64,000 nucleotides of DNA. Origin: Dechloromonas denitrificans (GTDB lineage Bacteria > Pseudomonadota > Gammaproteobacteria > Burkholderiales > Rhodocyclaceae). The stretch is taken from NCBI RefSeq assembly GCF_020510685.1, contig NZ_CP075185.1, positions 3,658,001-3,722,000 on the forward strand, in the 5' to 3' direction. Shown piece by piece: positions 26,706-47,020 of the stretch (its first letter is position 1; the number at the start of each line of letters is the position of its first letter). The notes under the pieces are model-generated. The model ran no database searches. It was not told the origin of the DNA and saw nothing but the letters and a program-made list of their open reading frames with translations. Both the position numbers and the translations under genes were made by a program.

Positions 26706-26721
26706 CGTGCGCTGGCGCACA
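26706..26721 (+). promoter_or_regulatory. Crp-type palindrome upstream of the glucan synthase operon
   Basis: CGTGCG-CTGG-CGCACA, one mismatch from the consensus TGTGYG-N4-CGCACA found repeatedly in 26.7-47 kb. TAAACT at 26743-26748 sits exactly where the -10 falls for an activator centred at -41.5 (start near 26755). The rest of the roughly 300-bp gap (26666-26963) shows no gene. Confidence 0.5.
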
Positions 26722-26963
26722 TACGTCAAGTACGTTGGCGATTAAACTCATCTCTTTGCTGTTGCGAGCCCCGTCGGGCCACTGCCGCCGAGCCGGCTGG
26801 CACCGCCCAGCGCGCCTGAGCGGCAAGCAATCCGCAGCGTTCCCGCGTCGAGTAATCGGCGAAGGCGCGGCGCACCGCCCCCGATGCGAATTAAAGCGTT
26901 GCAGACGGCGTTTTGGGTCCACCGTGTACGTCCGGACTTGCGCTACAGACAGGGATCAGAAAA

Positions 26964-29900
26964 TTGACAGAACGCAACAAGTCCATCCGCACTGCCCTGC
27001 TCAGGATCAGCAAACGCCTGCATGACGGCGGCCTGGCCCGGAAATTCGCGGCGGCCGAACCGCCGCTGCGTGCCGAGCTGTTCAGCGCCGACCAGATGGA
27101 GCGGCATGGCAAGGCGCTGGCCGACACGCATAAATTGCAGGCGGCACACGGACCGGACCTGCTGCTGGCCCGCCTCGGCGAGAACGAGGGTATCCTGCTC
27201 GGCACCTATGACCTGCTGCGCGAAGCGGTCAAGGAAAAGCGCCGGATCACGCCGGCCGGCGAATGGCTGCTCGACAACTTCTACCTGATCGAAGAACAGA
27301 TCCGCACCGCCCGGCGCCATTTCCCCAAGGGCTACAGCCGCGAATTGCCGCTGCTCGCCAGCGGTCCGTCGAGCGGCCTGCCGCGCGTTTACGACATCGC
27401 CCTGGAAGAAATCGCGCACGGCGACGGCCGGGTCGATCCAGAAAGCCTCTATCGCTTCGTCGCCGCCTACCAGAAGGTCGCCGACCTGAAGCTCGGCGAG
27501 TTGTGGGCGATCCCGATCATGTTGCGCCTGGCGCTGATCGAGAATCTGCGCCGGGTCGGCGCCCGCGTCGCCGCCGGCATGATCGACCGGAACAATGCCG
27601 ATGCCTGGGCCGACCAGATGATCGAGGTGGCCGAGACCGATCCGAAGAGCCTGATCCTGGTCATCGCCGACATGGCGCGGGCCAATCCGCCGCTGGTCAA
27701 TTCCTTCGTCGCCGAACTGGCGCGCCGCTTGCAGGGCCACAGTTCGGCGCTGGCCCTGCCGCTCACCTGGATCGAACAGCGGCTGTCCGAATCCGGCCAA
27801 ACCATCGAGCAGCTGGTCCAGTCGGAAACCCAGAGCCAGGCGGCGAACCAGGTTTCGATCAGCAACAGCATCGGCAGCCTGCGCCTACTCGGCGCCATCG
27901 ACTGGCGCGAATTTGTCGAAACGATGAGCACCGTCGACCAGAAACTGCGCGAGGATCCCGACGGGGTCTATGGCCGGATGGATTTCGCCAGCCGCGACCG
28001 CTACCGGCACGTCATCGAAAAACTGGCCCGGCAAAGCCGACTTTCCGAATGCGAGGTGGCGCGCAAAGCCATCCAGCTCGCCCACCAGGGCGACGGCGGC
28101 GACCAGCGCACCCGGCACGTCGGCTACTACCTGATCGACCACGGTCTAACGCAACTCGAGCACGCCGCCGCAGTCCGCCCGTCGGCCGGCGATGTCGTGC
28201 GCCGGCTGGGCACCGGCTCGCCCTTGCTGCTCTATCTTGGCGCCGTCGGGCTGCTCGTCGCCATTTTCGCCGGCGGCCTGCTGGTCTCGGCGCATGGCGC
28301 CGGGCTGGCCGACTGGCGGCTCGGCCTGATGGTCGTGCCGGCCCTGCTCGGCACCAGCCAACTGGCGGTAACGCTGGTGAACTGGCTGGTCACCCTGCTG
28401 GTCGTACCGCACCCGCTGCCCCGCATGGATTTTGCCAAAGGCATCGCCGCGCCAGCCCGCACGCTGGTCGTCGTGCCGACCATGCTGAGCAGCCGGCAGG
28501 GCGTCGCCGAGCTGCTTGAGGCGCTGGAAGTGCGCTTCCTGGCCAACCGCGATCCGTGCCTGCATTTCGGCCTGCTCACCGATTTCCGCGATGCCGATTC
28601 CGAACATCTGCCGACCGACGCGGCCTTGCTGCAACAAGCCGCCGCCGGTATCGCCGCGTTGAACGAGAAGTACGACCGGGCGACCAGCAACCAGTTCTTC
28701 CTGTTTCACCGGCCGCGCCGCTGGAATGTCCAGGAAGGCATCTGGATGGGTTACGAACGCAAGCGCGGCAAGCTCGGCGACCTCAACGCGCTGTTGCGCG
28801 GCGGCGGCAGCGAAGCCTTCTCGCAGATCGTCGGCCACCCCGCGATCCTCCACGAGGTCAAATACGTCATCACGCTCGACACCGACACCCAGCTGCCGCG
28901 CGATGCGGCGCGCGAGTTCGCCGCGACCATGGCGCATCCGCTGAACCAGCCGCGCTATGACGCCAGCCGGCAACGCGTCGACGCCGGCTACGGCATCCTG
29001 CAGCCGCGCATGGCGGTCAGCCTGCCGAGCACCAACCAGTCGCGCTACGCCCAGCTGTGCGGCAGCGAACCGGGCATCGATCCGTACACCCGGGCGGTCT
29101 CCGACGTGTATCAGGATCTCTTCGCCGAAGGCTCGTTCATCGGCAAGGGCATCTACGACGTCGATGCCTTCGAGCAATCGCTCAAGGAGCGCTTCCCGGA
29201 AAACCGCATTCTCAGCCACGACCTGCTCGAAGGCTGCTACGCCCGGGCCGGCCTGCTCAGCGACGTGCTGCTCTACGAGGACTACCCGGCCCGCTACAGT
29301 GCCGATGTCAGCCGCCGCTACCGCTGGATCCGGGGCGACTGGCAGATCGCCAGCTGGCTGCTGCCGCGCGTCCCCGGCGTCGGCGGCGAACGGCGGAAAA
29401 ACCCGCTGTCGAAACTGTCGCAATGGAAGCTGTTCGACAATCTGCGGCGCAGCCTCGTGCCGGCCGCGCTGGTGGCGCTGTTCCTGCTCGGCTGGGCGGC
29501 CGCCCCGGCGTTCGTCGGGTGGACGCTGGCGGCACTCGGCATCCTGTTCATCCCCAGCCTGCTGACCTCCAGCCTCGACCTGGTGCGCAAACAACCGGAA
29601 GTTCGCCTCGGTCAGCATCTGTCCTGCGTCGGACGGGCGACCAGCCGGCAATTCGCCCAGGCGACGTTGAGTCTCGCCTGCCTGCCCTACGAAGCCTGGT
29701 TCAGCCTCGATGCCATCCTGCGCACCGGCGCCCGCCTGCTGTTCACCGGCCGGCGCCTGCTCGAATGGAATCCGTCCGGCGAACTGCAGCGCGAAGCCGA
29801 GCACAAGCGCCGTCGCCAAGCTGCCCCCGGCAGCATCGGCGACCTGCGCCAGACCACCGGCACGATGTGGATGTCCCCTGCCCTGGCGACGACCACCGCC

Positions 29901-32900
29901 CTGGCGCTCGCCGCGCTGCGGCCGGAAGCCTTGCCCGCTGCGCTACCGATCCTCGGCCTGTGGCTGATCGCCCCGGCCATCGCCTGGTGGATCAGCCGCC
30001 CGCTGGCTCGCCGCCCGGCGACGCTGGCCCCCGAACAGCGGGTGTTTCTGCACCAGCTGGCGCGCAAGACCTGGGCATTCTTTGAAACCTTCGTCACCGC
30101 CCGCGACAACTGGCTGCCGCCCGACAATTTCCAGGAACACCCGGTGGCCGTGGTCGCCCACCGCACCTCGCCGACCAACATGGGGCTGGCCCTCCTCGCC
30201 AACCTGTCGGCCAGCGACTTCGGCTATATCAGCTTCGGCACCCTGCTCGAGCGGACCAACAATGCCTTGCTGAGCATGCTGGCCCTCGGTCGCTACCGCG
30301 GCCATTTCTACAACTGGTACGACACCCTGTCGCTGGCGCCGTTGTCGCCGCTCTACGTCTCCTCGGTGGACAGCGGCAACCTGGCCGGCCACCTGCTGAC
30401 CTTGCGCCCCGGCCTGCTCGCCCTGGCCGACCAGAGCATCCTGCCGGCCCGCACCTTCGCCGGCCTGGCCGACACCATGGGCGTCTTGCAGGAAGTCGCG
30501 GCGAACAACCCGTCAGCGGCCCTGGGCAGCCTGCGCCGCACCATCGAGTCGGCCTATGACGCCCGCCCGGCGAGCATCGCGGCGATCGGCCAGTGGCTGG
30601 ACAAGCTGACGGCGGCCGGCGAACTGCTGGCCGAGCAATTGGGCAGCAACCCGTCGGACACGACGAGCGAAGAACTGATCTGGTGGACGCAGGCCTTGTG
30701 CCGCCAATGCCAGGACGCCGTCGATGAACTGAACTTCCTGGCGCCCTGGGCCCGCCTGCCGGCCGCCCCGGAAAGCCTGGCGGAGCTACCCGGCCTGACC
30801 AGCCTGCCGACCTTGCGCCAGCTATCGAGGCTGGCCGATACCTTGCGCGGCCATTTCGAGAATAGCGCCGGCGGCGTCCGCTCGCCGGCCGAAAGCGCCT
30901 GGCTGGCCGAGCTGCAGCCGCTGGTCGAACTGGCCAGCCAACGGGCCAGCGAACGCATCCTGACCAGCCACAACCTGGCCCGCCAGGTCGGCGAACTGGC
31001 GGTACTCGACTACGATTTCCTCTACGACAAGCTGCGCCACCTGCTGACCGTCGGCTACAACGTCGATCAGCGCCGCCAGGACACCGGCAGCTACGACCTG
31101 CTCGCCTCGGAAGCCCGGCTCTCGAGCTTTGTCGCCATTGCCCAGGGCGCCGTGCCGCAGGAAAGCTGGTTCGCCCTCGGTCGCCTGCTGACGACGGCCG
31201 GCGGCGATCCGATCCTGCTCTCGTGGAGCGGCTCGATGTTCGAGTATCTGATGCCGATGCTGGTCATGCCGACCTACGAGAACACCCTGCTGCACCAGAC
31301 CTGCCTGGCCGCCGTCCAGCGCCAGATCGCCTACGGCAAGCAGCGCGGCGTGCCCTGGGGGATGTCGGAATCCGGCTACAACGCGGTCGACGCCCGCCTC
31401 AACTACCAGTACCGCGCCTTCGGCGTGCCCGGCCTGGGCCTGAAACGCGGCCTCGGTGAAGATCTGGTCATCGCCCCCTACGCCTCCGCCCTCGCCCTGA
31501 TGGTGATGCCCGAAGCAGCTTGCGAGAATCTGCAACGGCTGACCGCCGACGGCCTGCAGGGCAAGTTCGGCATGTACGAAGCGGTCGATTTCACCCCGGC
31601 CCGCCTGCCGCGCGGCCAGAACAACGCCGTGGTGCGCTCCTTCATGGCCCACCACCAGGGCATGAGCCTGCTCGCCATCGCCTATCTGCTGCACGATCAG
31701 CCGATGCAGAAACGCTTTGTCGCCGACCCGCTGTTCCAGGCCACGACGCTGCTGCTGCAGGAGCGCGTGCCGGTCGTCGCCGCCTTCCACGTCCATGCCG
31801 CCGAGTTGTCCGAGGTGCGGACTACCTCGGCCGGGCCGGAAATGCCGATGCGCATCATCCGCAGCGCCGACACGCCGAGTCCGGAAGTCCAGCTGCTGTC
31901 GAACGGCCGTTACCACGTGATGGTCACCAATGCCGGCGGCGGCTACAGTCGCTGGAAGGATTTCGCCATCACCCGCTGGCAGGAGGACGGCACCAGCGAC
32001 AACTGGGGCACCTTCTGCTACCTGCGCGACGTGGCGACCGGCGCCTGCTGGTCGACCGCCCACCAGCCGACCGGCCAGCCGGCCGATACCTACGAGGCGA
32101 TTTTCTCCGAGGCGCGGGCCGAGTTCCGGCGCCTCGATCACGACTATGAAACGCATACCGAAATCGTCGTCTCGCCGGAAGACGACATCGAACTGCGCCG
32201 CATCCGCCTGACCAACCGCTCGCGCGTCCGGCGGACCATCGAAATCACCAGCTACGCCGAGGTGGTGCTCGCCTCGCCGGCGGCCGACGCTCTGCACCCG
32301 GCCTTCAGCAACCTGTTCGTGCAGAGCGAGATCGTTCCGGAACAGCAGGCCATCCTGTGCACCCGCCGGCCACGTGCCGTCGGCGACCCGGTGCCCTGGA
32401 TGTTCCACCTGATGGCGGTGCACGGCGCCACCTGCGAAGCGGTGTCCTACGAAACAGACCGGGCCCGCTTCATCGGCCGGACGCGCAGCCTCGCCGCGCC
32501 GGAAGCCCTGCGCCAGGCCGGCCCGCTGTCGGGCAGCCAGGGTTCGGTGCTCGACCCGATCGTCGCCATCCGCTACCGGATCAGCCTAGATCCCGAACAA
32601 TCGGCGACGCTCGACGTCGTTTCCGGCATCGCCGACAGCCGCGACGCGGCGCTCGGCCTGGTCGGCAAATACCGCGACCGGAATCTCGCCGACCGCGTCT
32701 TCGAAGTCGCCTGGACGCACAGCTGGGTCAATCTGCAGCAGATCAACGCCAGCGAATCCGACGCCCAGCTGTTCAACCGGCTGGCCGGCTCGGTGATCTA
32801 CGCCAATCCGCTGCTCCGCGCCGAGGCCAGCGTTCTCGCCAGCAACCGGCGCGGCCAGTCCGGGCTGTGGGGCTACGCCATTTCCGGCGACCTGCCGATC

Positions 32901-35744: not shown

Positions 35745-35784
35745 TGAAACGGCGCTCGGTCAATTTCGGAACGGGGAAAAATCG

Positions 35785-36870
35785 ATGAATCCAACACGCC
35801 AATTGCACGCCCTCGGCCAAAGCCTGTGGCTCGACAACATCACCCGCGACCTGCTCAACAGCGGCACCTTGCAGCGTTACTGCAACGAGCTGTCGGTCAG
35901 CGGCCTGACCTCCAATCCGACCATCTTCGAGCAGGCCATTCGCAACACCGCGGCTTACGACGCGGCCATCGCCGCCGCGGCCGGCGCCGGCAAAACCGGC
36001 GAAGCGCTGTTTTTCGATCTGGCGCTGGCCGATCTGAAGCAGGCGGCCGCCCTCTTCCGGCCCATCCACCAGGCCAGCGGCGGACTGGATGGCTGGGTGT
36101 CGCTGGAAATCTCGCCGCTGCTGGCCGACGATACCGCCGGCACGGTCGCCGAGGCCAAGCGCCTGCACGCCCTGGCCAACTGTCCCAACCTGTTCATCAA
36201 GATTCCCGGCACGCCGGCCGGCGTCCGGGCCATCGAAGAAGTGATCCTGGCCGGCGTGCCGGTCAACGTCACGCTGCTCTTCTCCCGCGAACACTACATC
36301 GCGGCGGCCGACGCCTACTGGCGCGGCATCGCCCGGCGGATCGAGGCCGGCCTCGACGCCCGGGTCAATTCGGTCGCCTCGATCTTCGTCAGCCGCTGGG
36401 ATGCCGCGGTCGCCGGCAAGACGCCGGCCGCCCTGAGCAACCGCTTGGGCGTGGCGATCGGCCAGCGCATCTACAAGGCCTACCGCAAGCGCCTGACCTC
36501 CCCGGCCTGGCGCAAACTGGCCGACGCCGGCGCCCTGCCGCAGCGCCTGCTGTGGGCCAGCACCGGCACTAAGGACCCGCAGATCAAGGCGAGCTATTAC
36601 ATCGAAGCGCTCGCCGCCCCCGGCACCATCAACACCATGCCGGAAAAGACCCTGCTCGCCTTCGCCGAACTGGGCGTCATCAACGGAGTGATGGCCGAGG
36701 ATGGCGGCGACACCGAAACGATGCTCGCCGACTTTGCCCTGGCCGGCGTCGATATCGTCGCGCTGGCCAGCCAGCTGCAACTGGACGGGGCGCGCGCCTT
36801 CACGCAATCGTGGGTCGCCCTGCTCGCGCTGATCGACGCCAAATCCCAGCCCGCCACCGGAAGGAGCTGA
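35785..36870 (+). CDS. tal: Transaldolase
   Basis: The 361-residue TIM-barrel enzyme moves a dihydroxyacetone unit between sugar phosphates in the pentose phosphate pathway. The Schiff-base lysine is K139 in [12 protein letters not shown], and [14 protein letters not shown] (39-52) is the family signature. The ATG at 35785, 40 bases after the glucan synthase stop and following GGGGA, is chosen over an upstream frame start. It is the TalA-long subtype, paired with a phosphoketolase two bases downstream, so the three genes probably form one operon. Confidence 0.93.
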
Positions 36871-36872
36871 TC

Positions 36873-39236
36873 ATGAGCAATGCCAGCACGCCAACCCTGT
36901 CGCCCGATCTGCTGAGGAAAATGAACGCCTGGTGGCGCGCCGCCAACTACCTGTCGGTCGGCCAGATTTACCTCTACGACAATCCGCTGCTCAAGGAGCC
37001 GCTCGAACTCGCCCACATCAAGCCGCGCCTGCTCGGCCACTGGGGCACGACGCCGGGGCTCAACTTCATCTACGTGCACCTCAACCGGATCATCAAGGCG
37101 CACGACCTCAACGTCATCTACCTGACCGGGCCGGGCCACGGCGGTCCGGGGCTGGTTGCCAATACCTATCTGGAAGGCACCTACAGCGAGATCTATCCGA
37201 ATATCTCGCCGGACGAGCCCGGCATGAAACGCCTGTTCAAGCAGTTCTCCTTTCCCGGCGGCATTCCCAGCCACGTTTCGCCGGACACCCCGGGCTCGAT
37301 CCATGAAGGCGGCGAACTCGGCTACGCGCTGTCGCACGCCTACGGGGCAGCCTTCGACAATCCCGATCTGCTGGTCGCCTGCGTCGTCGGCGACGGCGAA
37401 GCGGAAACCGGGCCGCTGGCCACCAGTTGGCACTCGAACAAGTTTCTCAATCCGGTGCACGACGGTGCCGTGCTCCCGATCCTCCATCTGAACGGCTACA
37501 AGATCGCCGGCCCGACCGTGCTGGCACGCATTCCGCACGACGAACTGGAAGCGCTGTTCCGCGGCTACGGCTACACGCCGTATTTCGTCGAGGGCGACGA
37601 TCCGCTGGAAATGCACCAGCAGATGGCGGCCACCCTCGACCGCGCCGTGGCCCACATCCAGGCCATCCAGCACGATGCCCGGAGCAACGGCTTCACCGAG
37701 CGGCCGGCCTGGCCGATGATCATCCTGCGTTCGCCCAAGGGCTGGAGCGGCCCGCAAATGGTCGACGGCAAGCCGACCGAGAACACTTTCCGCTCGCACC
37801 AGGTGCCGATGGGCGACATGAGCCAGCCCGGCCATGTCCAGATTCTCGAAGACTGGCTGCAGAGCTACCGGCCGCAGGAGCTGTTCGACGAGAACGGCAA
37901 GCTGCGCGCCGAACTGGCCGACTTGGCGCCGCAGGGCAACCGGCGCATGGGAGCCAACCCGCATGCCAATGGCGGCCTGCTGCTGCGCGACCTGCGCCTG
38001 CCCGACTACCGCGATTACGCCATCCAGGTCCCGCAACCGGGCGGCGTGAAGGCCGAGGCCACCCGCGCCCAGGGCGAGTTCATCCGCGATGTCGTCAAGG
38101 GCAACCCGCACACCTTCCGTATCTTCAGCCCGGACGAAACGGCATCGAACCGCTGGGGCGCCGTATTCGAAGTGACCAACCGCTGCTCGACGGCGGAAAT
38201 CCTGGCGATCGACGACCACGTCGCGCCGGACGGCAGGGTCATGGAAATATTGAGCGAGCACCAGTGCGAAGGCTGGCTCGAAGGCTACCTGCTGACCGGC
38301 CGGCACGGCTTCTTTTCCTCCTACGAAGCCTTCATCCACATCATCGACTCGATGTTCAACCAGCACGCCAAGTGGCTGAAGATGGCCAACGAGATTCCCT
38401 GGCGGCGGCCGATCGCCTCGTTGAACTACCTGCTCTCCTCGCACGTCTGGCGCCAGGACCACAACGGCTTCAGCCACCAGGACCCGGGTTTCATCGACCA
38501 CGTGATCAACAAGAAGGCCGAGATCATCCGTGTCTATCTGCCGCCCGATGCCAATACCCTGCTCTCGGTCACCGACCACTGCCTGCGCAGCCGCAATTAC
38601 GTCAACGTGATCATTGCCGGCAAGCAGCCGGAAGCGCAGTGGCTGGACATGGACGCGGCGATCAAGCATTGCACCGCTGGCATCGGTATCTGGGAATGGG
38701 CGAGCAGCGACCGGGGCGAGGAACCGGATGTCGTGATGGCCTGCGCCGGCGATGTACCGACCCTCGAAACGCTGGCCGCCGTGGTCTTGCTGCGCCAGCA
38801 CTTTCCCGAACTGAAAGTCCGCGTCATCAACGTCGTCGACCTGATGACCCTGCCGCCCCACAGCGAGCACCCGCACGGCCTGAGCGACCGCGACTTCGAC
38901 GAACTGTTCACCCGCGACAAGCCGATCATTTTCGCCTACCACGGCTACCCCTGGCTGATCCACCGCCTGACCTATGCCCGGACCAACCACAAGAACCTGC
39001 ACGTCCGCGGCTACAAGGAGGAAGGCACGACCTCGACGCCGTTCGACATGGTGGTGATGAACGACATGGATCGCTTCCATCTGGTGGCCGACGTCATCGA
39101 CCGCGTCGCCCAGCTCGGCCCGCGCGCCGCTTACGCCAAGCAGGCGATCCGCGACAAGCTGATCGAGCACAAGCAGTACATCGCGACGCATGGCGAGGAT
39201 CTGCCGGAAATCCGCGACTGGAAATGGCCGTTCTGA
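36873..39236 (+). CDS. xfp: Xylulose-5-phosphate/fructose-6-phosphate phosphoketolase
   Basis: The 787-residue thiamine-diphosphate enzyme splits xylulose-5-P or fructose-6-P to acetyl phosphate. Signatures include [18 protein letters not shown], the start of the ThDP motif [25 protein letters not shown] and SPKGWSGP. An ideal AAGGAG lies six bases before the ATG. Full-length and apparently intact. Together with transaldolase it could shunt sugar phosphates to acetyl-P/acetate; its location after a glucan synthase suggests a response to carbon overflow, which is inference. Confidence 0.95.
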
Positions 39237-39242
39237 CATAGA

Positions 39243-39284
39243 GCGGCAGCCCGGGCACCGCAAAGCCCGGGCGCCGCATTTTTT
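39243..39284 (+). terminator. Strong rho-independent terminator after xfp
   Basis: Left arm GCGGC-A-GCCCGGGC and right arm GCCCGGGC-GCCGC pair with one bulge, followed by ATTTTTT (39278-39284). It begins 7 bases past the xfp stop and closes the glucan synthase-tal-xfp operon. Confidence 0.85.
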
Positions 39285-39312
39285 CATTCATTCGCTAAAT
39301 ACCGGGGCGCTG

Positions 39313-39328
39313 TGTGCGATGGCGCACA
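39313..39328 (+). promoter_or_regulatory. Crp-type palindrome, candidate activator site for a small RNA
   Basis: TGTGCG-ATGG-CGCACA with perfect 6-bp arms. TATTGT at 39350-39355 is exactly at the class II -10 position (site centre -41.5 from a start near 39362). The transcript would run into the terminator at 39405-39437. Confidence 0.55.
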
Positions 39329-39361
39329 GAAGAGATCTGCCGAATGGAATATTGTCGATCC

Positions 39362-39437
39362 CGGCGTCTGGTCTCCCCCAGATCGGCGCCCGTAGCATTC
39401 AGCTCGGTAGCGGCAACGCTGTTACCGGGCTTTTTTT
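39362..39437 (+). ncRNA. Candidate ~75-nt small RNA
   Basis: Predicted from a promoter-like arrangement (site at 39313, -10 TATTGT at 39350) to a terminator made of CGGTA-GCG-GCAA-CGC-(TGT)-TACCG followed by seven T (39431-39437). An upstream hairpin TCTGG-TCTCCC-CCAGA (39367-39382) exposes a C-rich loop able to pair with Shine-Dalgarno sequences, as in several known regulatory RNAs. No ORF with a ribosome site fits. Expression and targets are inference. Confidence 0.4.
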
Positions 39438-39484
39438 CGCGCCCGCCAACCAGCCGCTGCCCGCACCGAAAAAACCGCGTCATC

Positions 39485-39500
39485 TGTGCGCCAACACACC
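39485..39500 (+). promoter_or_regulatory. Crp-type palindrome upstream of the YqjD-like gene
   Basis: TGTGCG-CCAA-CACACC, a weaker copy of the recurring site, 62 bases before the ATG at 39562. CATTCT at 39522-39527 occupies the class II -10 position but is only a half match. Confidence 0.35.
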
Positions 39501-39561
39501 GACCGCCACCGGGCAAGCGCCCATTCTTGGCTGGTATCCACACCAGCAAAGGAGCTGAATC

Positions 39562-39879
39562 ATGGAAACGAAGGAAATGAGCGACAAACTCGCTCGCACG
39601 GTAGACAGCGTAACGAGCAACGCGCACAAGGCCATCGACCGGGTTTCCGGGGCAACGCGCCCGGCCATCGAACACATTGCCGCCGGCGCCCATCAGGCGG
39701 CCGACAAACTCAACGCAACCGGCCGGCAGATCAGGGAAAGCCAGGCGCGACTTACGGAAAACCTGCGCGGGCAGTTACGCGAGCGGCCATTCACCAGCAT
39801 CGGCATCGCCGTCGCCGCCGGCTTCCTGCTCAACTGGCTGCTCAGGCAGCGCCCGGCTGCCCGGCCACCAACCGAATAA
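39562..39879 (+). CDS. YqjD/ElaB-like (DUF883) membrane-anchored protein
   Basis: The 105-residue protein has a long amphipathic helical region rich in Ala/His/Thr (about 8-72) and a C-terminal hydrophobic anchor (about 80-95, GIAVAAGFLLNWLL) followed by RQRPAAR. This matches the DUF883 layout of YqjD/ElaB, inner-membrane proteins that bind ribosomes in stationary phase in E. coli. AAAGGAG precedes the ATG. Two recurring Crp-type sites lie upstream, and the 49-residue membrane gene follows 15 bp downstream. Confidence 0.75.
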   Translation: METKEMSDKLARTVDSVTSNAHKAIDRVSGATRPAIEHIAAGAHQAADKLNATGRQIRESQARLTENLRGQLRERPFTSIGIAVAAGFLLNWLLRQRPAARPPTE

Positions 39880-39894
39880 AACGGAGACAATTCA

Positions 39895-40044
39895 ATGCTC
39901 TATACCATTGCAGTAGTAATGCTGATCCTCTGGCTGCTTGGCCTGATCACGTCGACCACCATGGGTGGCTTTGTGCACATCCTGCTGGTCATCGCCATCG
40001 TCGTCATCCTGCTACGGGTGATCGGCGGACGCCGGGGCTTGTAA
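39895..40044 (+). CDS. Lmo0937-like 49-residue membrane protein
   Basis: A 49-residue frame, MLYTIAVVMLILWLLGL then GGFVHILLVIAIVVILL and a terminal GGRRGL. This is the two-span pattern of the Lmo0937 family (DUF5670). CGGAG lies about 9 bases upstream. The family is widespread and stress-associated but uncharacterised. It sits between the YqjD-like and VIT genes on the same strand, so likely co-transcribed. Confidence 0.8.
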   Translation: MLYTIAVVMLILWLLGLITSTTMGGFVHILLVIAIVVILLRVIGGRRGL

Positions 40045-40058
40045 GCGGCAGCACTATC

Positions 40059-40096
40059 GGCTGTACTGTAGGCCCTGAACAAACTACAGAGCAGCC
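40059..40096 (+). promoter_or_regulatory. RNA hairpin directly before the VIT start codon
   Basis: GGCTG-TA-CTGTAG (40059-40071) pairs with CTACAG-AG-CAGCC (40084-40096) around a 12-base loop. It ends one base before the ATG at 40098 and leaves no free Shine-Dalgarno. It would restrict translation unless opened. No known metal riboswitch consensus was recognised. Confidence 0.45.
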
Positions 40097-40097
40097 C

Positions 40098-40799
40098 ATG
40101 AAAGCTTTTCGCCGCCACGCCGAACGTCACCGCACCGAGCGCATCGGCTGGCTGCGGGCGGCCGTGCTCGGGGCCAACGACGGCATCGTGTCCACCGCCA
40201 GTCTGATCGTCGGTGTCGCCGCCGCCAGCACGCCCCCGGAAAACATCCTGATGGTCGGCGTTGCCGGCCTGGTCGCCGGAGCCATGTCGATGGCGGCCGG
40301 CGAATATGTCTCGGTACACTCGCAGGCCGACACCGAAAATGCCGATCTGGCCCGCGAGAAAGCCGAACTCGAAACCGACCCGGCGGCCGAACATCGCGAG
40401 CTGGAGAGTATCTATATCGCCCGCGGTCTCGAACCCGAACTGGCCAAACAGGTCGCCGTCCAACTGATGGCCCATGACGCCCTCGGCGCCCATGCCCGCG
40501 ACGAACTCGGCATCTCCAAAGAGCTGGGCGCGCGCCCCCTGCAGGCCGCCCTCGCATCGGCCGCCAGTTTCGCGGTGGGTGCCGCCCTGCCGCTGCTCAG
40601 CACCGCCCTGGCCCCGGCGCCCGGGATTATTCTCTGGGTCTCCGCCAGCTCGCTGGTCTTTCTCGCCCTGCTCGGCGCCCTGGCCGCCCGCGCCGGTGGT
40701 GCCGGCCTGGTCCAGGGCACCTGGCGCGTCACCTTCTGGGGAGCGCTGGCCATGGCGATCACCGCCGGCGTCGGCGCCTTGTTCGGCACCGTGGTCTGA
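40098..40799 (+). CDS. VIT1/CCC1 family iron/manganese transporter
   Basis: The 233-residue protein starts with a short basic segment and ERIGWLRAAVLGANDGIVSTASLIVGV, the VIT/CCC1 signature. The loop GAMSMAAGEYVSVHSQADTE follows, then a hydrophilic metal-binding region (about 75-150) rich in Glu/Asp/His, and further spans. Members move Fe(II)/Mn(II) out of the cytosol. The ATG abuts a hairpin (40059-40096). The frame is open far upstream but only across other genes. Confidence 0.9.
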   Translation: MKAFRRHAERHRTERIGWLRAAVLGANDGIVSTASLIVGVAAASTPPENILMVGVAGLVAGAMSMAAGEYVSVHSQADTENADLAREKAELETDPAAEHRELESIYIARGLEPELAKQVAVQLMAHDALGAHARDELGISKELGARPLQAALASAASFAVGAALPLLSTALAPAPGIILWVSASSLVFLALLGALAARAGGAGLVQGTWRVTFWGALAMAITAGVGALFGTVV

Positions 40800-40859
40800 A
40801 TCAACGGCGCCTGGTCCGACCCCGCTGGCGCGGCAGTCGGACGTTAAATGGCGCCAGGT

Positions 40860-41741
40860 TTAGCGGCCGCGACCGCGTTCCTCGTTGTTGTTTTCCCGGC
40901 CGTGGCTGTCGCCGCCCCGGCCCCGATTGTCGCGGCCCGGCTCGTCCGCCCTGACGGCCGGTTCGGGAGCTCGGGGCGACGGCTCGCTGGCCCGCCGCGG
41001 CGCTTCCGTCCGCTCGGCGGGTGGCGCCTGACGTTGCTGCATCGGCGAGGGCTGGCGTGGCTCGACCGGCTCGGCATTGCGGGCCGGTGGCCCCGAACGA
41101 TCCGGCGCTTCGTGCGGTGCATCCGGGCGGCGGCTGTCGCCATTGCCGCGCGACTGGAATTGCTCCTGGGTTACCCGTTCGCGCGGCTGGTAGCGGTAAT
41201 TTTCGGCGCGAATCGCATGTTGCTGCTCGACCGCCCGTGGATAGGCGTCGCCCCGGTACTGCCGCTGGTAAGTCGGCAATGGGGCGGGAGCGGGAGCGGC
41301 ACGGCGATCCCGGCTGTTCCACTCCGGCCTCTGCCGTTCCCAGTCGTTGCCCCAGTACTGCCCCCAGCGCGGCGGCGCATCGGCCCGCCAGCCACGGAAA
41401 TAGCGCGGCGGCTGACTGTAATAGCGGACCGGGATGCGCAGCACATAGACCGGCACATACTCGGGCTCGACCGACTGCCAGGGACCGTTGTACCAGCTGC
41501 TCGAATACCACATGTCGCTGCGGTAGACCCAGAACAGGCCGTCATAAAAGAAGAAGTTCGATTGCACGCTTGGCGCGTAGTAGGCCGGCAAGCCGGGAAT
41601 CCGGACAAACTCGGGATAGCGGGCCATGTTGATGCCGACATTGACGCCGGGAAAGCCGATATTGACGCTGACCTGGGCCTGGGCCGAGGCGGCCGTGCCA
41701 AATGCCAGCGACAGGGCGACGAGCAGGGAGCGCATTTTCAT
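40860..41741 (-). CDS. Secreted YXWGXW-type repeat protein
   Basis: The 293-residue exported protein has a signal peptide (1-22, ASAQA|QVSVNIG). Its Tyr/Trp-rich region (about 40-140) contains FFFYDGLFWVYRSDMWYSSSWYNGPW, as in the YXWGXW/VNIG-type periplasmic family. The Arg/Pro/Glu/Gln-rich tail (about 150-293) is disordered and ends RGRGR. Function unknown. Its ATG overlaps the stop of the BON gene (ATGA), indicating coupling. Confidence 0.75.
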   Translation of the reverse strand: MKMRSLLVALSLAFGTAASAQAQVSVNIGFPGVNVGINMARYPEFVRIPGLPAYYAPSVQSNFFFYDGLFWVYRSDMWYSSSWYNGPWQSVEPEYVPVYVLRIPVRYYSQPPRYFRGWRADAPPRWGQYWGNDWERQRPEWNSRDRRAAPAPAPLPTYQRQYRGDAYPRAVEQQHAIRAENYRYQPRERVTQEQFQSRGNGDSRRPDAPHEAPDRSGPPARNAEPVEPRQPSPMQQRQAPPAERTEAPRRASEPSPRAPEPAVRADEPGRDNRGRGGDSHGRENNNEERGRGR

Positions 41742-42163
41742 TTGCTGGCCTGCACGCGCAGCGCCGTCGTATCGACGGCCTTGACGCCCTCAACCTTGGC
41801 GGCAATTTCCCGGACCCGGAGGATTGCCTCCGGATTGCCCAGCACGCCCGTCAGAACGACGACGCCGTCGGTCGTCGTGACATTGACCTCGAAGCCCTTG
41901 CTGGCGCTGTCGGCGAGGATTTCCGACTTGACCTTGGTGGTGATCCAGCTATCGGAAGCGACCTGCTTGGTCATGGCCACAGCCTCCCGTGCATCGGCCT
42001 TGGCATTGTCGACGGTCCCGGCGCCGGCGCTGGCCGCTGTCGCGAACACGCTGCCGATTACCCATGCGGAAACCGAGCATGCCCGCCGGAATGAGTGTCC
42101 GCCAGCTACTGGAGGGACGTTTCGTTTTGCCGACCGCGATGCGGTCCACCGGAATGATTTCAT
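41738..42163 (-). CDS. Exported BON-domain protein
   Basis: The 141-residue protein starts at the ATG at 42163, with GAGGTAA upstream. A long basic n-region precedes the hydrophobic SVSAWVIGSVFATAASA signal segment (about 29-46). One BON domain follows (about 72-137, WITTKVKSEILADSASKGFEVNVTTTDGVVVLTG). BON proteins (OsmY-like) are periplasmic and induced by osmotic or envelope stress. The frame is open upstream to 42421 but with low-quality composition. A Crp-type site lies 90 bases upstream. Confidence 0.85.
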   Translation of the reverse strand: MKSFRWTASRSAKRNVPPVAGGHSFRRACSVSAWVIGSVFATAASAGAGTVDNAKADAREAVAMTKQVASDSWITTKVKSEILADSASKGFEVNVTTTDGVVVLTGVLGNPEAILRVREIAAKVEGVKAVDTTALRVQASK

Positions 42164-42252
42164 GTTTACCTCGGAGAGAAGAGCAGAAGAGCGCACTTGA
42201 ACGGTACGCTGAAGTCGCCGGATCGATCTTGCTTGGACAAGCGAACCCCGTC

Positions 42253-42268
42253 CGTGTGTCAGCGCACA
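42253..42268 (-). promoter_or_regulatory. Crp-type palindrome for the BON-YXWGXW operon
   Basis: CGTGTG-TCAG-CGCACA. On the minus strand CAAGAT (42231-42226) lies exactly at the class II -10 position (start near 42219, 56 bases before the BON ATG). Confidence 0.45.
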
Positions 42269-42311
42269 TTGTCTTCCCAGGCACGGCCGTGGGCGGCGCT
42301 CCTCATTTTTA

Positions 42312-42327
42312 TGTGTGCTAGCGCACA
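42312..42327 (+). promoter_or_regulatory. Crp-type palindrome for the small lipoprotein gene
   Basis: TGTGTG-CTAG-CGCACA, 59 bases from the neighbouring site in the same divergent gap. CACTCT at 42349-42354 is in the class II -10 position but is a poor hexamer. Target gene starts at 42460. Confidence 0.4.
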
Positions 42328-42459
42328 GACCGCATTGAAACGCGCCGCCACTCTTGCTGCACCGGGCGCCGAAAACCGGGTAACGGCCTCGCCAAGGCCG
42401 CTGCGGAATCCGTGGCACCAACGGCGCCTCATCGTTGTTCGCACGCCAAGGAGATTCAA

Positions 42460-42657
42460 ATGATCAAGAACCACAAAGTCGTCGTTACCACACTGGCGAT
42501 AAGCGCCCTCGTTTTCGCGCTGTCGGGCTGCGAAAAACCGGCCGGTCCGGCGGAGAAAGCCGGCCAGGAAGTTGACAAGGCGGTGCAGAGCGCCGGGCAG
42601 CAGATCGAAAAAGCCGGTGAAAAAATCCAGGACGCGGCCAAGGACACGAAGAAATAA
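42460..42657 (+). CDS. Small lysine/glutamine-rich lipoprotein
   Basis: The 65-residue protein has an AAGGAG seven bases before the ATG, a signal peptide (about 1-23) and the lipobox ALSGC with Cys24. The mature part is a charged amphipathic helix (EKAGQEVDKAVQSAGQQIEKAGEKIQDAAKDTKK), resembling small stress lipoproteins. No specific family is recognised. It is divergent from the BON gene over a 296-bp gap containing two palindromes. Confidence 0.75.
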   Translation: MIKNHKVVVTTLAISALVFALSGCEKPAGPAEKAGQEVDKAVQSAGQQIEKAGEKIQDAAKDTKK

Positions 42658-42672
42658 GTCGCCTGGTCGCTG

Positions 42673-42688
42673 CGTACGCTGCCGCACA
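42673..42688 (+). promoter_or_regulatory. Degenerate Crp-type site upstream of the Spy-like gene
   Basis: CGTACG-CTGC-CGCACA: the right arm is perfect and the left arm poor. TAGCCT at 42710-42715 sits at the class II -10 position, and the gene starts at 42775. Confidence 0.25.
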
Positions 42689-42774
42689 TTCAGCGGTAGC
42701 GAATCGGACTAGCCTTCGCTTCATCGCTCACCGGCTTGGCATCAGGCCCGTCCACTCGCCCAAGGAGATCCATC

Positions 42775-43284
42775 ATGCCTCAGTTCCGCCCGTCGATTCC
42801 GTCGTTGTTCGTCGCCTCGATCCTCGCCCTGTGCAGCATCCCGGCCCTGGCCGAGATGTCTTGCGGGCCGCTCGACGGCCACGGATATTTCCACGAGCAC
42901 CGCGCCGAGCGGATGGAACAACGGCAAAAGACCCTGCATGAAAAGCTCAAGCTGAGCGCCGAGCAGGAAGCCGGCTGGAAAAAACTGATTGATTCCGAAC
43001 ATTCCGGCCCGTGGGCGAAAACGGGAAAGAGGGAGGACTGGGCCAAGCTCACCACGCCGGAGCGAGCCGAAAAGATGCAGGAACGGATGACGGCGCAGCA
43101 GACAGCAATGGCCGAGCATCTGGTCGTGCTCAAGGAGTTCTACGCGACGCTGACGCCGGCTCAGAAAAAGATCTTTGACGATTTCCACGTCGGCCCGCGG
43201 CGTGGCATGCGCGGCAAACCGGCCCCACACTCCGGCCCGCAACCGGCGCCGCTCCCGCCCAGAGCCGCAGTTGGCCAATCTTGA
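42775..43284 (+). CDS. Spy/CpxP-like periplasmic LTXXQ protein
   Basis: The 169-residue protein has a signal peptide (1-26, IPALA|EMSCG), a helical His/Glu/Gln/Lys-rich body and the LTPAQ motif near 137-141 followed by KKIFDDFH. It ends in a Pro-rich tail. This is the Spy/CpxP LTXXQ pattern of ATP-independent envelope chaperones. AAGGAGA precedes the ATG. The phospholipase gene overlaps its stop (TTGA). Confidence 0.8.
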   Translation: MPQFRPSIPSLFVASILALCSIPALAEMSCGPLDGHGYFHEHRAERMEQRQKTLHEKLKLSAEQEAGWKKLIDSEHSGPWAKTGKREDWAKLTTPERAEKMQERMTAQQTAMAEHLVVLKEFYATLTPAQKKIFDDFHVGPRRGMRGKPAPHSGPQPAPLPPRAAVGQS

Positions 43285-44405
43285 CTGAAGCCGGCCGGAA
43301 GGCCTCCGGAGATCGGATTGTCCCGTCACACCGACGCTTTGCCCCCCGCCGGTGGTGCAGCATGGCGCCGGTCGCCGCCGCCCTGCTGGCCGGATCGTGC
43401 CTCGCTGCCGAGCCGGCCAGTTGCGCCAGCGAGGCCGACGATGCGCGCCGGCTGGCCTGCTACGACCGACTTTTCGCCGCTTCACCGGCCAGCCCGGCGG
43501 CGCAGCCGGCCAGCCGCGCCGCCGTCGCTAACGAGAAGCCTCCAGCTCCGGCCGTACCGGTTAAGCTCGATGCCGAACATCCGACCTCGGTCATGTCCAA
43601 GGCCTGGGAACTCGGCCCCGACGACAAGCGCGGCACGTTCGTGGTCAGGACTTACCTGCCGAACTTTCTGCTGCCGCTGCATTACACCACCCACGTCAAT
43701 CAATCACCGAGCAGCCCAACCCAGGTGCCGGGCGCCAGCCACCCGAGCTACAAGAAAATCGAAGCGAAGCTGCAAATCTCGTTGCGCGCCAAGGTTGCGG
43801 AAGACCTGCTGCTGCCCGGCGCCGATCTGTGGTTCGCCTTTACCCAGCGCTCGCTCTGGCAGGTTTGGGATCAACAGGATTCATCGCCGTTCCGGAGCAC
43901 CGACTATCAGCCGGAAGCGATCTACGTCATCCCCGTCCCGGCGAAGCTGGGCGACCTCCCCTTCGGCTGGAACCTGCGGATGATCCAGCTCGGTCTGGCC
44001 CACCAGTCGAATGGTCAAAGCGACCCGCTGTCGAGAAGCTGGAACCGCACCTATATCAGCGCCGGATTCGAGCGCGGCGATGTCGGCCTGATGGTTCGCG
44101 CCAACCACCGCCTGCCCGAACCCAGCGACGACCAGAACCCCGACCTCACCAAATTCATCGGCCACGGCGAGGTCATGCTGAACTGGTTTCCCGGCCCCTC
44201 GACGCTCGGCCTGACCTGGCGTCCCAACCTGCAACGCATCGAACGCGGCTCCGTTCAATTCGATTTGACCCACCCGGTCTTTCCCGACAAGCCATCCGGT
44301 CTTCGCTGGTATGTCCAGTTTTTCAACGGCTACGGCGAGACCCTGCTCGACTACAACCATCGGCAAACCCGGCTGGGCGTCGGCTTGAGCCTGTTCCAGT
44401 TCTGA
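43281..44405 (+). CDS. pldA: Outer-membrane phospholipase A1 (OMPLA)
   Basis: The 374-residue frame from TTG 43281 contains the OMPLA catalytic motif HQSNGQS...SRSWNRTY (His241, Ser243, Asn in the second half) and alternating aromatic beta-strands ending in Phe (SLFQF), as for a beta-barrel. An inner ATG at 43362 gives a clean signal peptide (MAPVAAALLAGSCLA|AEP) and may be the real start. OMPLA removes phospholipids misplaced in the outer leaflet under envelope stress, calcium dependent, as a dimer. Confidence 0.88.
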   Translation: MTEAGRKASGDRIVPSHRRFAPRRWCSMAPVAAALLAGSCLAAEPASCASEADDARRLACYDRLFAASPASPAAQPASRAAVANEKPPAPAVPVKLDAEHPTSVMSKAWELGPDDKRGTFVVRTYLPNFLLPLHYTTHVNQSPSSPTQVPGASHPSYKKIEAKLQISLRAKVAEDLLLPGADLWFAFTQRSLWQVWDQQDSSPFRSTDYQPEAIYVIPVPAKLGDLPFGWNLRMIQLGLAHQSNGQSDPLSRSWNRTYISAGFERGDVGLMVRANHRLPEPSDDQNPDLTKFIGHGEVMLNWFPGPSTLGLTWRPNLQRIERGSVQFDLTHPVFPDKPSGLRWYVQFFNGYGETLLDYNHRQTRLGVGLSLFQF

Positions 44406-44510
44406 GCCAAACAGGCTGACCGGGGAATCGGGAGCTAAGATTAAGCAGATGAATGACAACCAGCAATCGATAATCGGCAAGGCTGTAGCCGCATACAAAA
44501 AGGACGGGCA

Positions 44511-46676
44511 TTGCTTCCTGCATTGATCCAGAACGCCAGACAGAACCGCATCATCTCGGCCCTGCCGATGACGGTGTACACCCGGCTGGAAGACGATCTG
44601 GAGATCGTCAGCCTGCCCCTCGGCCAGACACTCTATGAGGCCGGCGACAGTCTGGATTTCGTATACTTCCCGACGACCTGCATCGTCTCGCTGATTTTCG
44701 CCACCGAGAACGGCTCCTCGTCGGAACTGGCGATGACGGGAAATGACGGCCTGATCGGCATTCCGCTGGTCCTCGGCGGCGAAACGACAACCCACAAGGT
44801 GGTCGTGCAAAGTGCCGGCGAAGCCTATCGCCTGCGCACCGAGGTATTTACCTGGGAGCTCGACCAGGGCGGCTATCTGCAGCGCCTTTGTCTGTGTTAC
44901 GCCCAGGCGCTGATGACGCAGATGGCCCAGAGCGTGGTCTGCAATCGCCACCATTCGGTGGTTCAGCAACTGTGCCGTTGGCTGCTGCAAAGCCTTGATC
45001 AGCTACCGGGCAACGAGCTGTACATGACCCAGGAACTGATCGCCAGCATGCTCGGCGTCCGCCGCGAAGCCGTCACCGAGGCGGCCGGAAAACTGCAGAC
45101 CGCCGGCCTGATGCAATACCGCCGCGGGCACATCACGGTGACCGACCGGCCCGGCCTCGAAGCCCGGGTTTGCGAATGCTACGGCGTCGTCCGCGCCGAA
45201 TATGACCGGATCTTCAAACTGATGCCGGCGACGCTCCCCAAGAACCGCACCAGGCCGAATCCGGCCACCTTGCGCCAGCGTGCCGAGGCTCGATTTCAAC
45301 AGACACCGCCAACAATGCCGACGACCACATGGGATACCGAACGGCTGGTGCACGAACTCCAGGTGCACCAGATCGAACTGGAAATGCATAACGAGGAGCT
45401 GCGCCATGCCTATGGCGAAGCCGACGCCTTGCGCGAGAAATATGCCGACATCTACGACTTCGCGCCGGTCGGCTATTTCACGATCGATCGGCACAGCCTC
45501 ATTCTGCAACTAAATCTGGCCGGCGCCATCCTGCTCGGCATCAAACGCTCGCAGATCGGCCGACACCGCTTTGCCGCCGCGATCAAGCCGGAATACCTGT
45601 TGCCGTTCAAGCATTTTGTCGAAGACGTTCTCGACGATAAAGCCAAGAAAAACTGCGAAATCGTGCTTGCCGCGACCAACCAGCGGCCCGAGGCGATCGT
45701 CAGGATCGAGGCGGTGCCGGATGAGAGCACCAGTGAATGCCGGATGGTGGTGATGGATGTCACCGCCGAAAAACTGGCCGAACGAGCGGTGAACCTGCGT
45801 GAGCAATATCAGCGGGCGCTGCTCGACAATTTTCCGTTCATGGTCTGGCTGAAGGACGAGCAAAGCCGGTTTCTCGCGGTTAACGCGCCTTTTGCCGAAA
45901 TCCACGGCTGGTCTTCGGTCGATATCCCGGTTGGCAAGACCGATTTCGACATCAGCCCGCCGGAACAGGCCGAAACCTATCGCGCCGACGATCTGGCCGT
46001 GCTGAGCAGCGGCGAGCGGAAAAGCGGCGAAGAGCTGATCGAGATCAACGGCGAGCCGCATTGGCTGGAAACCTACAAGTCGCCGGTCGTGATGGACGGC
46101 AACCGGATCGGCACGGTCGGCTTTTCGCGGGACATCACCAAACGCAAGCTGATGGAAGATGAATTGCGCCGACTGGCGGCGACCGATCCGTTAACCGAAC
46201 TGTTCACCCTGAAACATTTCCTGACGCATCTCGAAGCTGCCCACGCCAGTCTGAAACGCGGGGCCGACCAGTCGGTCGCCGTGCTCGAAATCAATATCGA
46301 CTATCTCCAGTCGATCAACAGCAATCTCGGTCATGCCGCGGGCGATGCGGTACTCCGGCTGGTTTCCGGACTGTTGCGCGCCGAATTGCGCAAGACCGAT
46401 GTCGCCGGCCGGATCAGCGGTGAAAAATTTGCCGTCCTGATGCCGGGTAGCGACGCCGCAGACGCCGAATCGTTCGCCGAGCGCCTGCGCAAAACGGTCG
46501 CCATGCCGAAAATCATCCTCGGCGAACGCCAAGGGGCGGTCAGCGTCAGCCTGAGCGTTGCGCTGATGGACGCCGCCGACCCAACGGCCGAAGCCGTGCT
46601 CAATCGGGCCGATGCGGCCCTGACGCTGGCCAAGGCGGCCGGTCTGACCGACGACAGGTCGGGGCGGCCCCACTGA
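44511..46676 (+). CDS. Crp-type sensor/HTH fused to PAS-PAS-degenerate GGDEF
   Basis: The 721-residue protein starts at TTG 44511, with AAAGGAC upstream. Residues 20-120 form a cNMP-binding-like beta-roll (PTTCIVSLIFATENGSSSEL). Residues 172-211 hold a Crp-type winged helix with the recognition helix VRREAVTEAAGKL. Two PAS domains lie at about 313-420 and 433-545. A GGDEF fold (about 555-710) has the signature SGEKF (636-640) and other substitutions (IDYLQSINSNLGH), so cyclase activity is unlikely. One chain joins a DNA-binding module to second-messenger-type sensing. The Crp Arg180/Glu181 contacts look conserved (RE), Arg185 is Glu. Confidence 0.85.
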   Translation: MLPALIQNARQNRIISALPMTVYTRLEDDLEIVSLPLGQTLYEAGDSLDFVYFPTTCIVSLIFATENGSSSELAMTGNDGLIGIPLVLGGETTTHKVVVQSAGEAYRLRTEVFTWELDQGGYLQRLCLCYAQALMTQMAQSVVCNRHHSVVQQLCRWLLQSLDQLPGNELYMTQELIASMLGVRREAVTEAAGKLQTAGLMQYRRGHITVTDRPGLEARVCECYGVVRAEYDRIFKLMPATLPKNRTRPNPATLRQRAEARFQQTPPTMPTTTWDTERLVHELQVHQIELEMHNEELRHAYGEADALREKYADIYDFAPVGYFTIDRHSLILQLNLAGAILLGIKRSQIGRHRFAAAIKPEYLLPFKHFVEDVLDDKAKKNCEIVLAATNQRPEAIVRIEAVPDESTSECRMVVMDVTAEKLAERAVNLREQYQRALLDNFPFMVWLKDEQSRFLAVNAPFAEIHGWSSVDIPVGKTDFDISPPEQAETYRADDLAVLSSGERKSGEELIEINGEPHWLETYKSPVVMDGNRIGTVGFSRDITKRKLMEDELRRLAATDPLTELFTLKHFLTHLEAAHASLKRGADQSVAVLEINIDYLQSINSNLGHAAGDAVLRLVSGLLRAELRKTDVAGRISGEKFAVLMPGSDAADAESFAERLRKTVAMPKIILGERQGAVSVSLSVALMDAADPTAEAVLNRADAALTLAKAAGLTDDRSGRPH

Positions 46677-46677
46677 C

Positions 46678-46893
46678 TCAGCGCCCGACGGGTTCCTTCA
46701 GATTGCCCTCCCACTGGCAGGAGAACTCGTAACAGCGATAGCGTCGCAGGTGCCCGAAAATACTCCAGAACCGGTCGATCGGCCGGCGGTGAATGCGGAT
46801 CAGCTTGTGTTGCCCGCAAACCGGGCAGGCCGGCGAATCAGCGGTATCAGGAAGCCCCGCGGAACGACTCGGTGAGGCAACAGGATTTACCAT
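46678..46893 (-). CDS. Small zinc-ribbon-like Cys-rich protein
   Basis: The 71-residue protein has CPVCG (23-27) and RCYEFSC (53-59), four cysteines spaced as a zinc ribbon, with IHRRPIDRFWSIFGHLRRYRC between them. Similar short proteins with a W(E/R)G end after the last Cys occur in many proteobacteria, function unknown. It converges with the Crp-GGDEF gene, one base apart. A perfect Crp-type palindrome and -10 lie upstream (47005, 46978). Confidence 0.6.
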   Translation of the reverse strand: MVNPVASPSRSAGLPDTADSPACPVCGQHKLIRIHRRPIDRFWSIFGHLRRYRCYEFSCQWEGNLKEPVGR

Positions 46894-47004
46894 TGCCAGG
46901 CTTTAATACCCATGCCAGCCTCCCTTCAACGAAATCCGGCGCGGCAAACACAACCCTGCAGCAGGGGCGTTACGGTAATTGTCTGCTCAAGTCCGGCCGC
47001 GCTC

Positions 47005-47020
47005 TGTGTGCTCGCACACA
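47005..47020 (-). promoter_or_regulatory. Crp-type palindrome upstream of the zinc-ribbon gene
   Basis: TGTGTG-CTCG-CACACA with perfect arms. On the minus strand GACAAT (46983-46978) is at the class II -10 position (start near 46971, 78 bases before the ATG at 46893). Confidence 0.5.

Follow-up and report, generated by a model that had tools for sequence, protein, structure and literature searches.

We describe here a predicted regulon of Dechloromonas denitrificans, found in a stretch of 64,000 nucleotides (the window; contig NZ_CP075185.1, positions 3,658,001 to 3,722,000) in which seven copies of a 16-bp palindrome accompany genes for envelope and stress proteins and a gene for a Crp/Fnr-type regulator with additional PAS and GGDEF domains (44511-46676 in window numbering). 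We consider it very likely that the palindromes are binding sites of a Crp/Fnr subfamily, of which this protein is the local member (recognition helix VRRE.VTEA), and that they serve class II activation of envelope and stress promoters. Judged from sequence, the regulator-operator pair is real, coherent, widespread and of a known mechanistic kind. The subfamily is unstudied but widespread, and the operator is very probably its landing site.

In the mechanism that we propose, a dimer of the 44511-type regulator would bind TGTGCG-N4-CGCACA with its centre at -41.5, covering the place of the -35 element, and would recruit RNA polymerase by class II activation, the promoters keeping their -10 hexamer and the operator replacing the -35. 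About 16 promoters in two islands of this genome would be switched on, serving periplasmic glucan synthesis and phosphoketolase, DUF883, CsbD, BON, Ysc84/SYLF, Spy-like and lipoprotein genes, perhaps also one small RNA and probably, via site 6, the regulator's own operon.

Operator sites and promoter geometry

A pattern scan of the window found all seven palindromes where a first-pass annotation of the sequence had placed them (sites 1 to 7, Table 1): three match TGTGYG-N4-CRCACA exactly, three with one mismatch and one with two. That annotation had seen no such sites elsewhere in the window, and indeed at up to one mismatch there is no further distinct site, while apart from matches overlapping the seven sites two matches with two mismatches are left, at 29056 and 63209. 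The loose pattern, with up to two mismatches, gives 13 matches in the window for 10.8 expected and, being at chance level, is no evidence by itself.

The annotation had also seen a -10-like hexamer exactly 41.5 bases from the centre of sites 1, 2, 4 and 7. The four hexamers are there, but they begin at 29.5 and it is the predicted start that lies at 41.5; moreover, sites 3, 5 and 6 have one as well (CATTCT, CACTCT and TAGCCT), which makes 7/7. In every case the hexamer has A at position 2 and T at position 6, a form named AnnnT and scored at +29.5. At random intergenic points of the same DNA this form is met in 286 of 3515 cases (8.1%), against which 7/7 has p=2e-8.

The same spacing is seen in larger sets, at 13 of the 15 intergenic sites of the whole genome and at 71 of the 91 intergenic sites in 45 stretches from relatives, compared with 0/8 and 1/4, respectively, of the matches that fall in coding DNA. 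In an oriented set of 124 sequences, in which a site between divergent genes is counted in both directions, AnnnT stands at +29.5 in 69, the mean count across 76 offsets tested being 5.5; sites with a single possible direction give 38/54. Taken by column, A is found in 79/124 and T in 86/124 (p below 1e-24), and the predicted start at +41.5 is A in 28 of the 69 (p=1e-4). The layout of site and -10 hexamer thus corresponds to the class II geometry used by Crp-type activators, with predicted starts. Among the 69 sites with a -10, C is present at -13 in 35 and at -8 in 40, which we take to resemble the -10 form of sigma-S promoters; since a housekeeping-promoter search meant as control was uninformative (10 matches, and 9 for the reversed pattern), we make no sigma-S claim.

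Distribution of operator and regulator

In the 4.62-Mb genome the motif has 24 matches at up to one mismatch and 5 exact ones, compared with 5 and 0 for the reversed pattern. Removal of one overlapping match leaves 23, of which 15 lie between genes and 8 within genes, the latter scattered as expected of background. The first-pass annotation had named random spread through coding DNA as the outcome of a genome-wide scan that would count against it; the intergenic majority and the excess over the reversed pattern speak for it instead. Six of the 15 intergenic matches belong to the window block and seven to a second island (1.607-1.641 Mb); the remaining two are at 1.038 and 1.530 Mb. Motif and -10 combined give 51 matches at up to two mismatches in the whole genome, the reversed control 12, and the 15 matches with 0-1 mismatch (14 sites, one read both ways) are confined to the two islands and the 1.038-Mb position.

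The regulon had at first been called local, which is wrong because 9 of the 16 promoter-like sites of the two islands are located 2 Mb from the window. The related statement that the sites are confined to the accessory block stands within the window and fails genome-wide, given the second cluster and the exact site at 1.038 Mb. With neither a fitting -10 nor a called gene nearby, the 1.530-Mb site is probably outside the regulon. As a separate observation, the second island (1,602,001-1,642,000 of the genome) holds nine promoter-like sites, and none of the HTH_Crp_2 matches listed falls inside it.

A search for relatives across 150 genomes of the same family found the regulator in 48 of them (E<=1e-30); 40 regulator-centred stretches, drawn from 37 of the 47 other regulator-bearing genomes, make up the 45 stretches together with five named loci. 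With 59 palindromes of permuted arm letters as control, the 40 stretches yielded 87 matches at up to one mismatch (permuted mean 8.0, highest 28) and 17 exact ones (permuted mean 0.25, highest 3). In the 45 stretches 91 of 95 sites are intergenic, where about 24% of the DNA is intergenic by the gene calls made here. The exact motif is present in 31/48 genomes with the regulator and in 19/102 without it (p=4.8e-8), the reversed control in 14/48 and 24/102 (p=0.29).

The contrast is also visible among four congeners: G112 and G147, which lack the regulator, contain no exact motif, and the two regulator-bearing ones contain 5 and 2. Some background persists, since motif plus -10 with one mismatch allowed still gives 4 matches in G112 and 1 in G147, with 10 in G062. 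Further away, 29 short regulator loci, taken from other orders or classes or at the distance of a phylum, gave 13 matches for 0.9 in the permuted control, with at least one site in 10 of them. An unbiased count of 6-mer dyads found TGTGCG in 9/40 loci as the best dyad with gap 4; this test is weak by itself because another dyad, with gap 12, is equally frequent (9/40). Altogether, co-occurrence, co-location, intergenic placement and the fixed -10 offset in relatives strongly support the earlier proposal of a class II regulon read by the 44511 Crp-like protein or close kin.

The regulator and competing explanations

The protein encoded at 44511-46676 contains cNMP_binding and HTH_Crp_2 domains, both above the Pfam cut-off. 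A model of residues 1-232 (mean predicted local distance difference test score, pLDDT, 91.5) gives nearly full-length matches to Crp/Fnr structures, with 11-22% identity among the matches listed, and its cNMP-binding-like fold and Crp-type winged helix-turn-helix place the modelled protein among the Crp/Fnr transcription factors. As expected of this superfamily, the operator is a palindrome whose two half-sites follow the TGTG-N8-CACA frame, seen both in the sequence of the sites and in their excess near the regulator. The subfamily has at least 8000 relatives at E<=1e-40, and the names found among the matches listed (120 relatives, where named) are 'Crp/Fnr family transcriptional regulator', 'CRP-like cAMP-binding protein' and 'cyclic nucleotide-binding domain protein' only. 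In the aligned subfamily the recognition helix V-R-R-E-(G/A)-V-T-E-A is near-invariant, with R184, R185, E186 and T189 in 38/38 and E190 in 35/38. Alignment to GlxR puts R185 and E186 on its Arg-Glu pair and E190 where GlxR has Lys, and this change in the helix may be linked to the change of base in the half-site.

A second Crp-like gene, 36-41% identical, lies near the first in relatives L127, L128, L130, L131, L133, L135, L141, L142 and L147. The distant group that is often encoded beside the regulator has a recognition helix that is mostly VRR(V/A)G, not VRREG; it may read a different sequence, and the targets may be split between the two sister regulators.

Several observations weigh against the regulon as proposed. 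Co-occurrence has gaps on both sides, with 17/48 regulator genomes lacking an exact site and 19/102 regulator-less genomes having one, and no motif is present in 19 of the 29 short loci from these more distant groups (other orders, other classes, phylum distance). At the exact 1.038-Mb site, a fitting -10 is missing on both sides. Target turnover is strong: the site stands before 1/12 CsbD relatives, 0/4 VIT1 relatives and 2/11 relatives of the glucan synthase type. The gap directly upstream of the regulator holds no site at up to two mismatches, and a site upstream of the regulator is common but not general, since only 16/48 subfamily genes (own copies included) have one with up to one mismatch within 420 bp. 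Finally, the window protein is not alone in this genome in its DNA-reading helix: a paralogue encoded at 1,022,387-1,023,067 is 73% identical over residues 9-235, has the Crp-PAS-GGDEF order of the window protein and shares the helix across VRREAVTEAA.

This paralogue could share sites with the window regulator. That it is their main reader, with the window protein as partner or competitor, appears improbable to us: the common helix and domain order would allow it, but the nearest listed motif is 15 kb off, whereas the window protein lies inside the site cluster, as its relatives tend to do.

The same regulator might also act as a repressor, its dimer covering the -35 region and blocking the polymerase, and geometry alone fits activation and repression alike. 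Nevertheless, the site occupies the -35 position and leaves the promoter without a -35 of its own, and a centre at exactly -41.5 is the classical position of a class II activator. We infer binding and activation, and give repression only a slight chance.

Half-sites of canonical regulators are TGTGA for Crp and TTGAT for Fnr, and the sites could in principle be odd variants bound by Crp/Vfr, Fnr/Anr or Dnr, as they keep the TGTG-N8-CACA frame of Crp and the genome has 15 HTH_Crp_2 matches (13 over cut-off). Base frequencies in sites chosen by the motif are partly true by construction, hence a recount in which one letter was left free in one arm and the rest fixed. It gave C 20, T 10, G 1 and A 0 at position 5, in agreement with the Y instead of A noticed in the first-pass annotation, and G in 20/20 at position 6, position 4 being the loosest (G 20, A 15, T 10, C 2); two positions beyond the 16-mer, T is the preferred base (79%). 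Moreover, the 45 stretches contain TGTGC-N6-GCACA 10 times and TGTGA-N6-TCACA not once, and the motif tracks this one subfamily, its exact pattern missing from the congeners G112 and G147 that lack the regulator. Binding by a canonical regulator is thus very improbable. The cassette that binds the phosphate of cyclic AMP (cAMP) includes an arginine, which by eye is not seen at its place in the aligned pocket segment GNDGLIGIPLVLGGETTTHKVVV; together with the TGTGA count, this led us to reject cAMP-Crp. Fnr of the N-terminal iron-sulphur (Fe-S) type was rejected as well, the invariant cysteines being at 144, 221 and 223, not N-terminal, and the half-site differing from TTGAT.

A repeat element or chance clustering without regulatory role, which the chance-level count of the loose pattern in the window would suit, deserves practically no weight, given the genome excess, the co-occurrence, the excess near the regulator and the intergenic placement and fixed -10 offset across differing promoters, 122/124 of which stay (68 with -10) when promoters at least 75% alike are removed.

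Activation by the 44511 subfamily may include the regulator itself: site 6 (42673, TAGCCT) heads the Spy-phospholipase-regulator run, which makes feedback plausible, and autoregulation would probably proceed via this site. The signal is probably other than cAMP. Cys144, His148, Cys221 and Cys223 are invariant in 38/38 aligned sequences and in 17/17 further rows covering all four, and are seen in the window protein (44511-45206) and in relatives L044-L047, L059 and L119-L157, including the distant sister group with the other helix. The set is possibly a shared metal, Fe-S or thiol sensing site, and its conservation makes the sensing question directly testable. A more speculative extension, which we think somewhat unlikely, would make the subfamily a redox- or metal-sensing master switch of envelope stress, its sensor being an invariant Cys3-His site by which the hinge helix is tied to the far end of the DNA-binding domain, and its role that of a Proteobacterial counterpart of the general stress response based on sigma factors; here the PAS-GGDEF fusion would tie the signal to cyclic-di-GMP.

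Target genes and comparison with known systems

Table 1 Predicted operator sites and neighbouring features of the window
Feature	Position	Strand	Match to TGTGYG-N4-CRCACA	Sequence	-10 hexamer	Predicted start	Remarks
Site 1	26706..26721	+	one mismatch	CGTGCGCTGGCGCACA	TAAACT 26743-26748	26755	upstream of cyclic glucan synthase-type operon
Glycosyltransferase/GH94 giant protein, 2926 amino acids	26964..35744	+					cyclic beta-1,2-glucan synthase type (name inferred); first gene after site 1
Transaldolase	35785..36870	+					likely glucan synthase operon (inferred from spacing)
Phosphoketolase (XFP)	36873..39236	+					likely glucan synthase operon (inferred from spacing)
Site 2	39313..39328	+	exact	TGTGCGATGGCGCACA	TATTGT 39350-39355	39362	
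Candidate small RNA, ~76 nt	39362..39437	+					strong terminator hairpin, then seven T; between sites 2 and 3
Site 3	39485..39500	+	one mismatch	TGTGCGCCAACACACC	CATTCT 39522-39527	39534	
DUF883-like small membrane protein	39562..39879	+					22 bits, under Pfam cut-off of 27
lmo0937/DUF5670 family small membrane protein	39895..40044	+					
VIT1 family protein	40098..40799	+					Pfam
Secreted-looking protein	40860..41741	-					no Pfam match; downstream of BON gene
BON-domain protein	41738..42163	-					downstream of site 4
Site 4	42253..42268	-, leftward	one mismatch	CGTGTGTCAGCGCACA (+ strand letters)	CAAGAT 42231-42226	42219	
Site 5	42312..42327	+	exact	TGTGTGCTAGCGCACA	CACTCT 42349-42354	42361	
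Small lipoprotein-like protein	42460..42657	+					no Pfam match
Site 6	42673..42688	+	two mismatches	CGTACGCTGCCGCACA	TAGCCT 42710-42715	42722	heads possible Spy-phospholipase-regulator operon
LTXXQ (Spy/CpxP-like) protein	42775..43284	+					
Phospholipase A1 (outer-membrane phospholipase A) family protein	43281..44405	+					
Crp/Fnr-type regulator	44511..46676	+					cNMP-binding fold, HTH_Crp_2, PAS, GGDEF (Pfam); start may be 44523
Small Cys-containing protein, 71 amino acids	46678..46893	-					downstream of site 7; no Pfam match; absent from gene calls made here
Site 7	47005..47020	-, leftward	exact	TGTGTGCTCGCACACA	GACAAT 46983-46978	46971	

Predicted targets of the second island comprise Ysc84/SYLF, a secreted-looking protein with KTEYKAG, a small lipoprotein, FMN reductase, DUF883 and CsbD; a membrane protein of that island is presumably CorC/HlyC-like, a name given without a domain scan. 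In relatives, 64 first genes follow sites with a -10, and 60 of them were scanned (two of more than 1000 residues, one cut at the end of its stretch and one duplicate were left out): BON was found 8 times, HTH_Crp_2 8, OmpA 4 and DUF5670 2. Sixty random genes of the same stretches gave HTH_Crp_2 3, CsbD 2, and at most 1 each of BON and OmpA. Homologues of the genome's own regulon genes have a site in 31/105 cases, other genes in 88/633 (p=1.3e-4), and the site is kept before homologues of the two BON queries (3/3 and 6/15), of lmo0937 (5/13) and of the second DUF883 (4/9). In relatives L130 and L154 a site also stands before a gene similar to the glucan synthase type gene of the window.

The region of the small-RNA candidate (39361-39443) folds at -37.9 kcal/mol (z -3.9) into a hairpin with a C-rich loop and the terminator. 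It was found in 1/150 genomes, this one only, and has no Rfam match; a conserved small RNA is thus not supported.

A defined operator and a fixed promoter geometry together mean that candidate targets can be listed in any genome with such a regulator, and a candidate regulator can be offered for stress genes of the CsbD, BON, DUF883, Ysc84 and lmo0937 types.

Compared with other members of the Crp/Fnr superfamily (GlxR, Mycobacterium tuberculosis CRP, A. fischeri Fnr and FixK2), to which identity is at most 22% among the matches listed, the system described here differs in its TGTGCG half-site and in the extra PAS-GGDEF portion of the regulator. In Bacillus subtilis Fnr, C-terminal cysteines hold an Fe-S cluster together with one residue close to where the long helix ends; Cys144, His148, Cys221 and Cys223 appear to fall in roughly comparable places, a likeness seen in residue conservation.

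PhaR belongs to a protein family other than Crp/Fnr. The PhaR/AniA palindromes of Sinorhizobium meliloti have the published motif YGCRNYGCR, whose arms stand much closer together than with the N4 gap of the operator here, and several of the listed PhaR sites have TGTGC...GCACA-like arms (PMC12542648); with its shorter gap, PhaR was rejected as reader. A literature search that covered mostly open-access papers found, among the entries listed, no paper on this motif or regulon. General stress responses are governed by sigma-S in beta- and gammaproteobacteria and by PhyR-EcfG in alphaproteobacteria. The kinds of targets are similar to those found here (CsbD, BON/OsmY-like, DUF883 and Spy-like); however, those responses use sigma factors, whereas here a Crp-type activator is predicted to read the operator.

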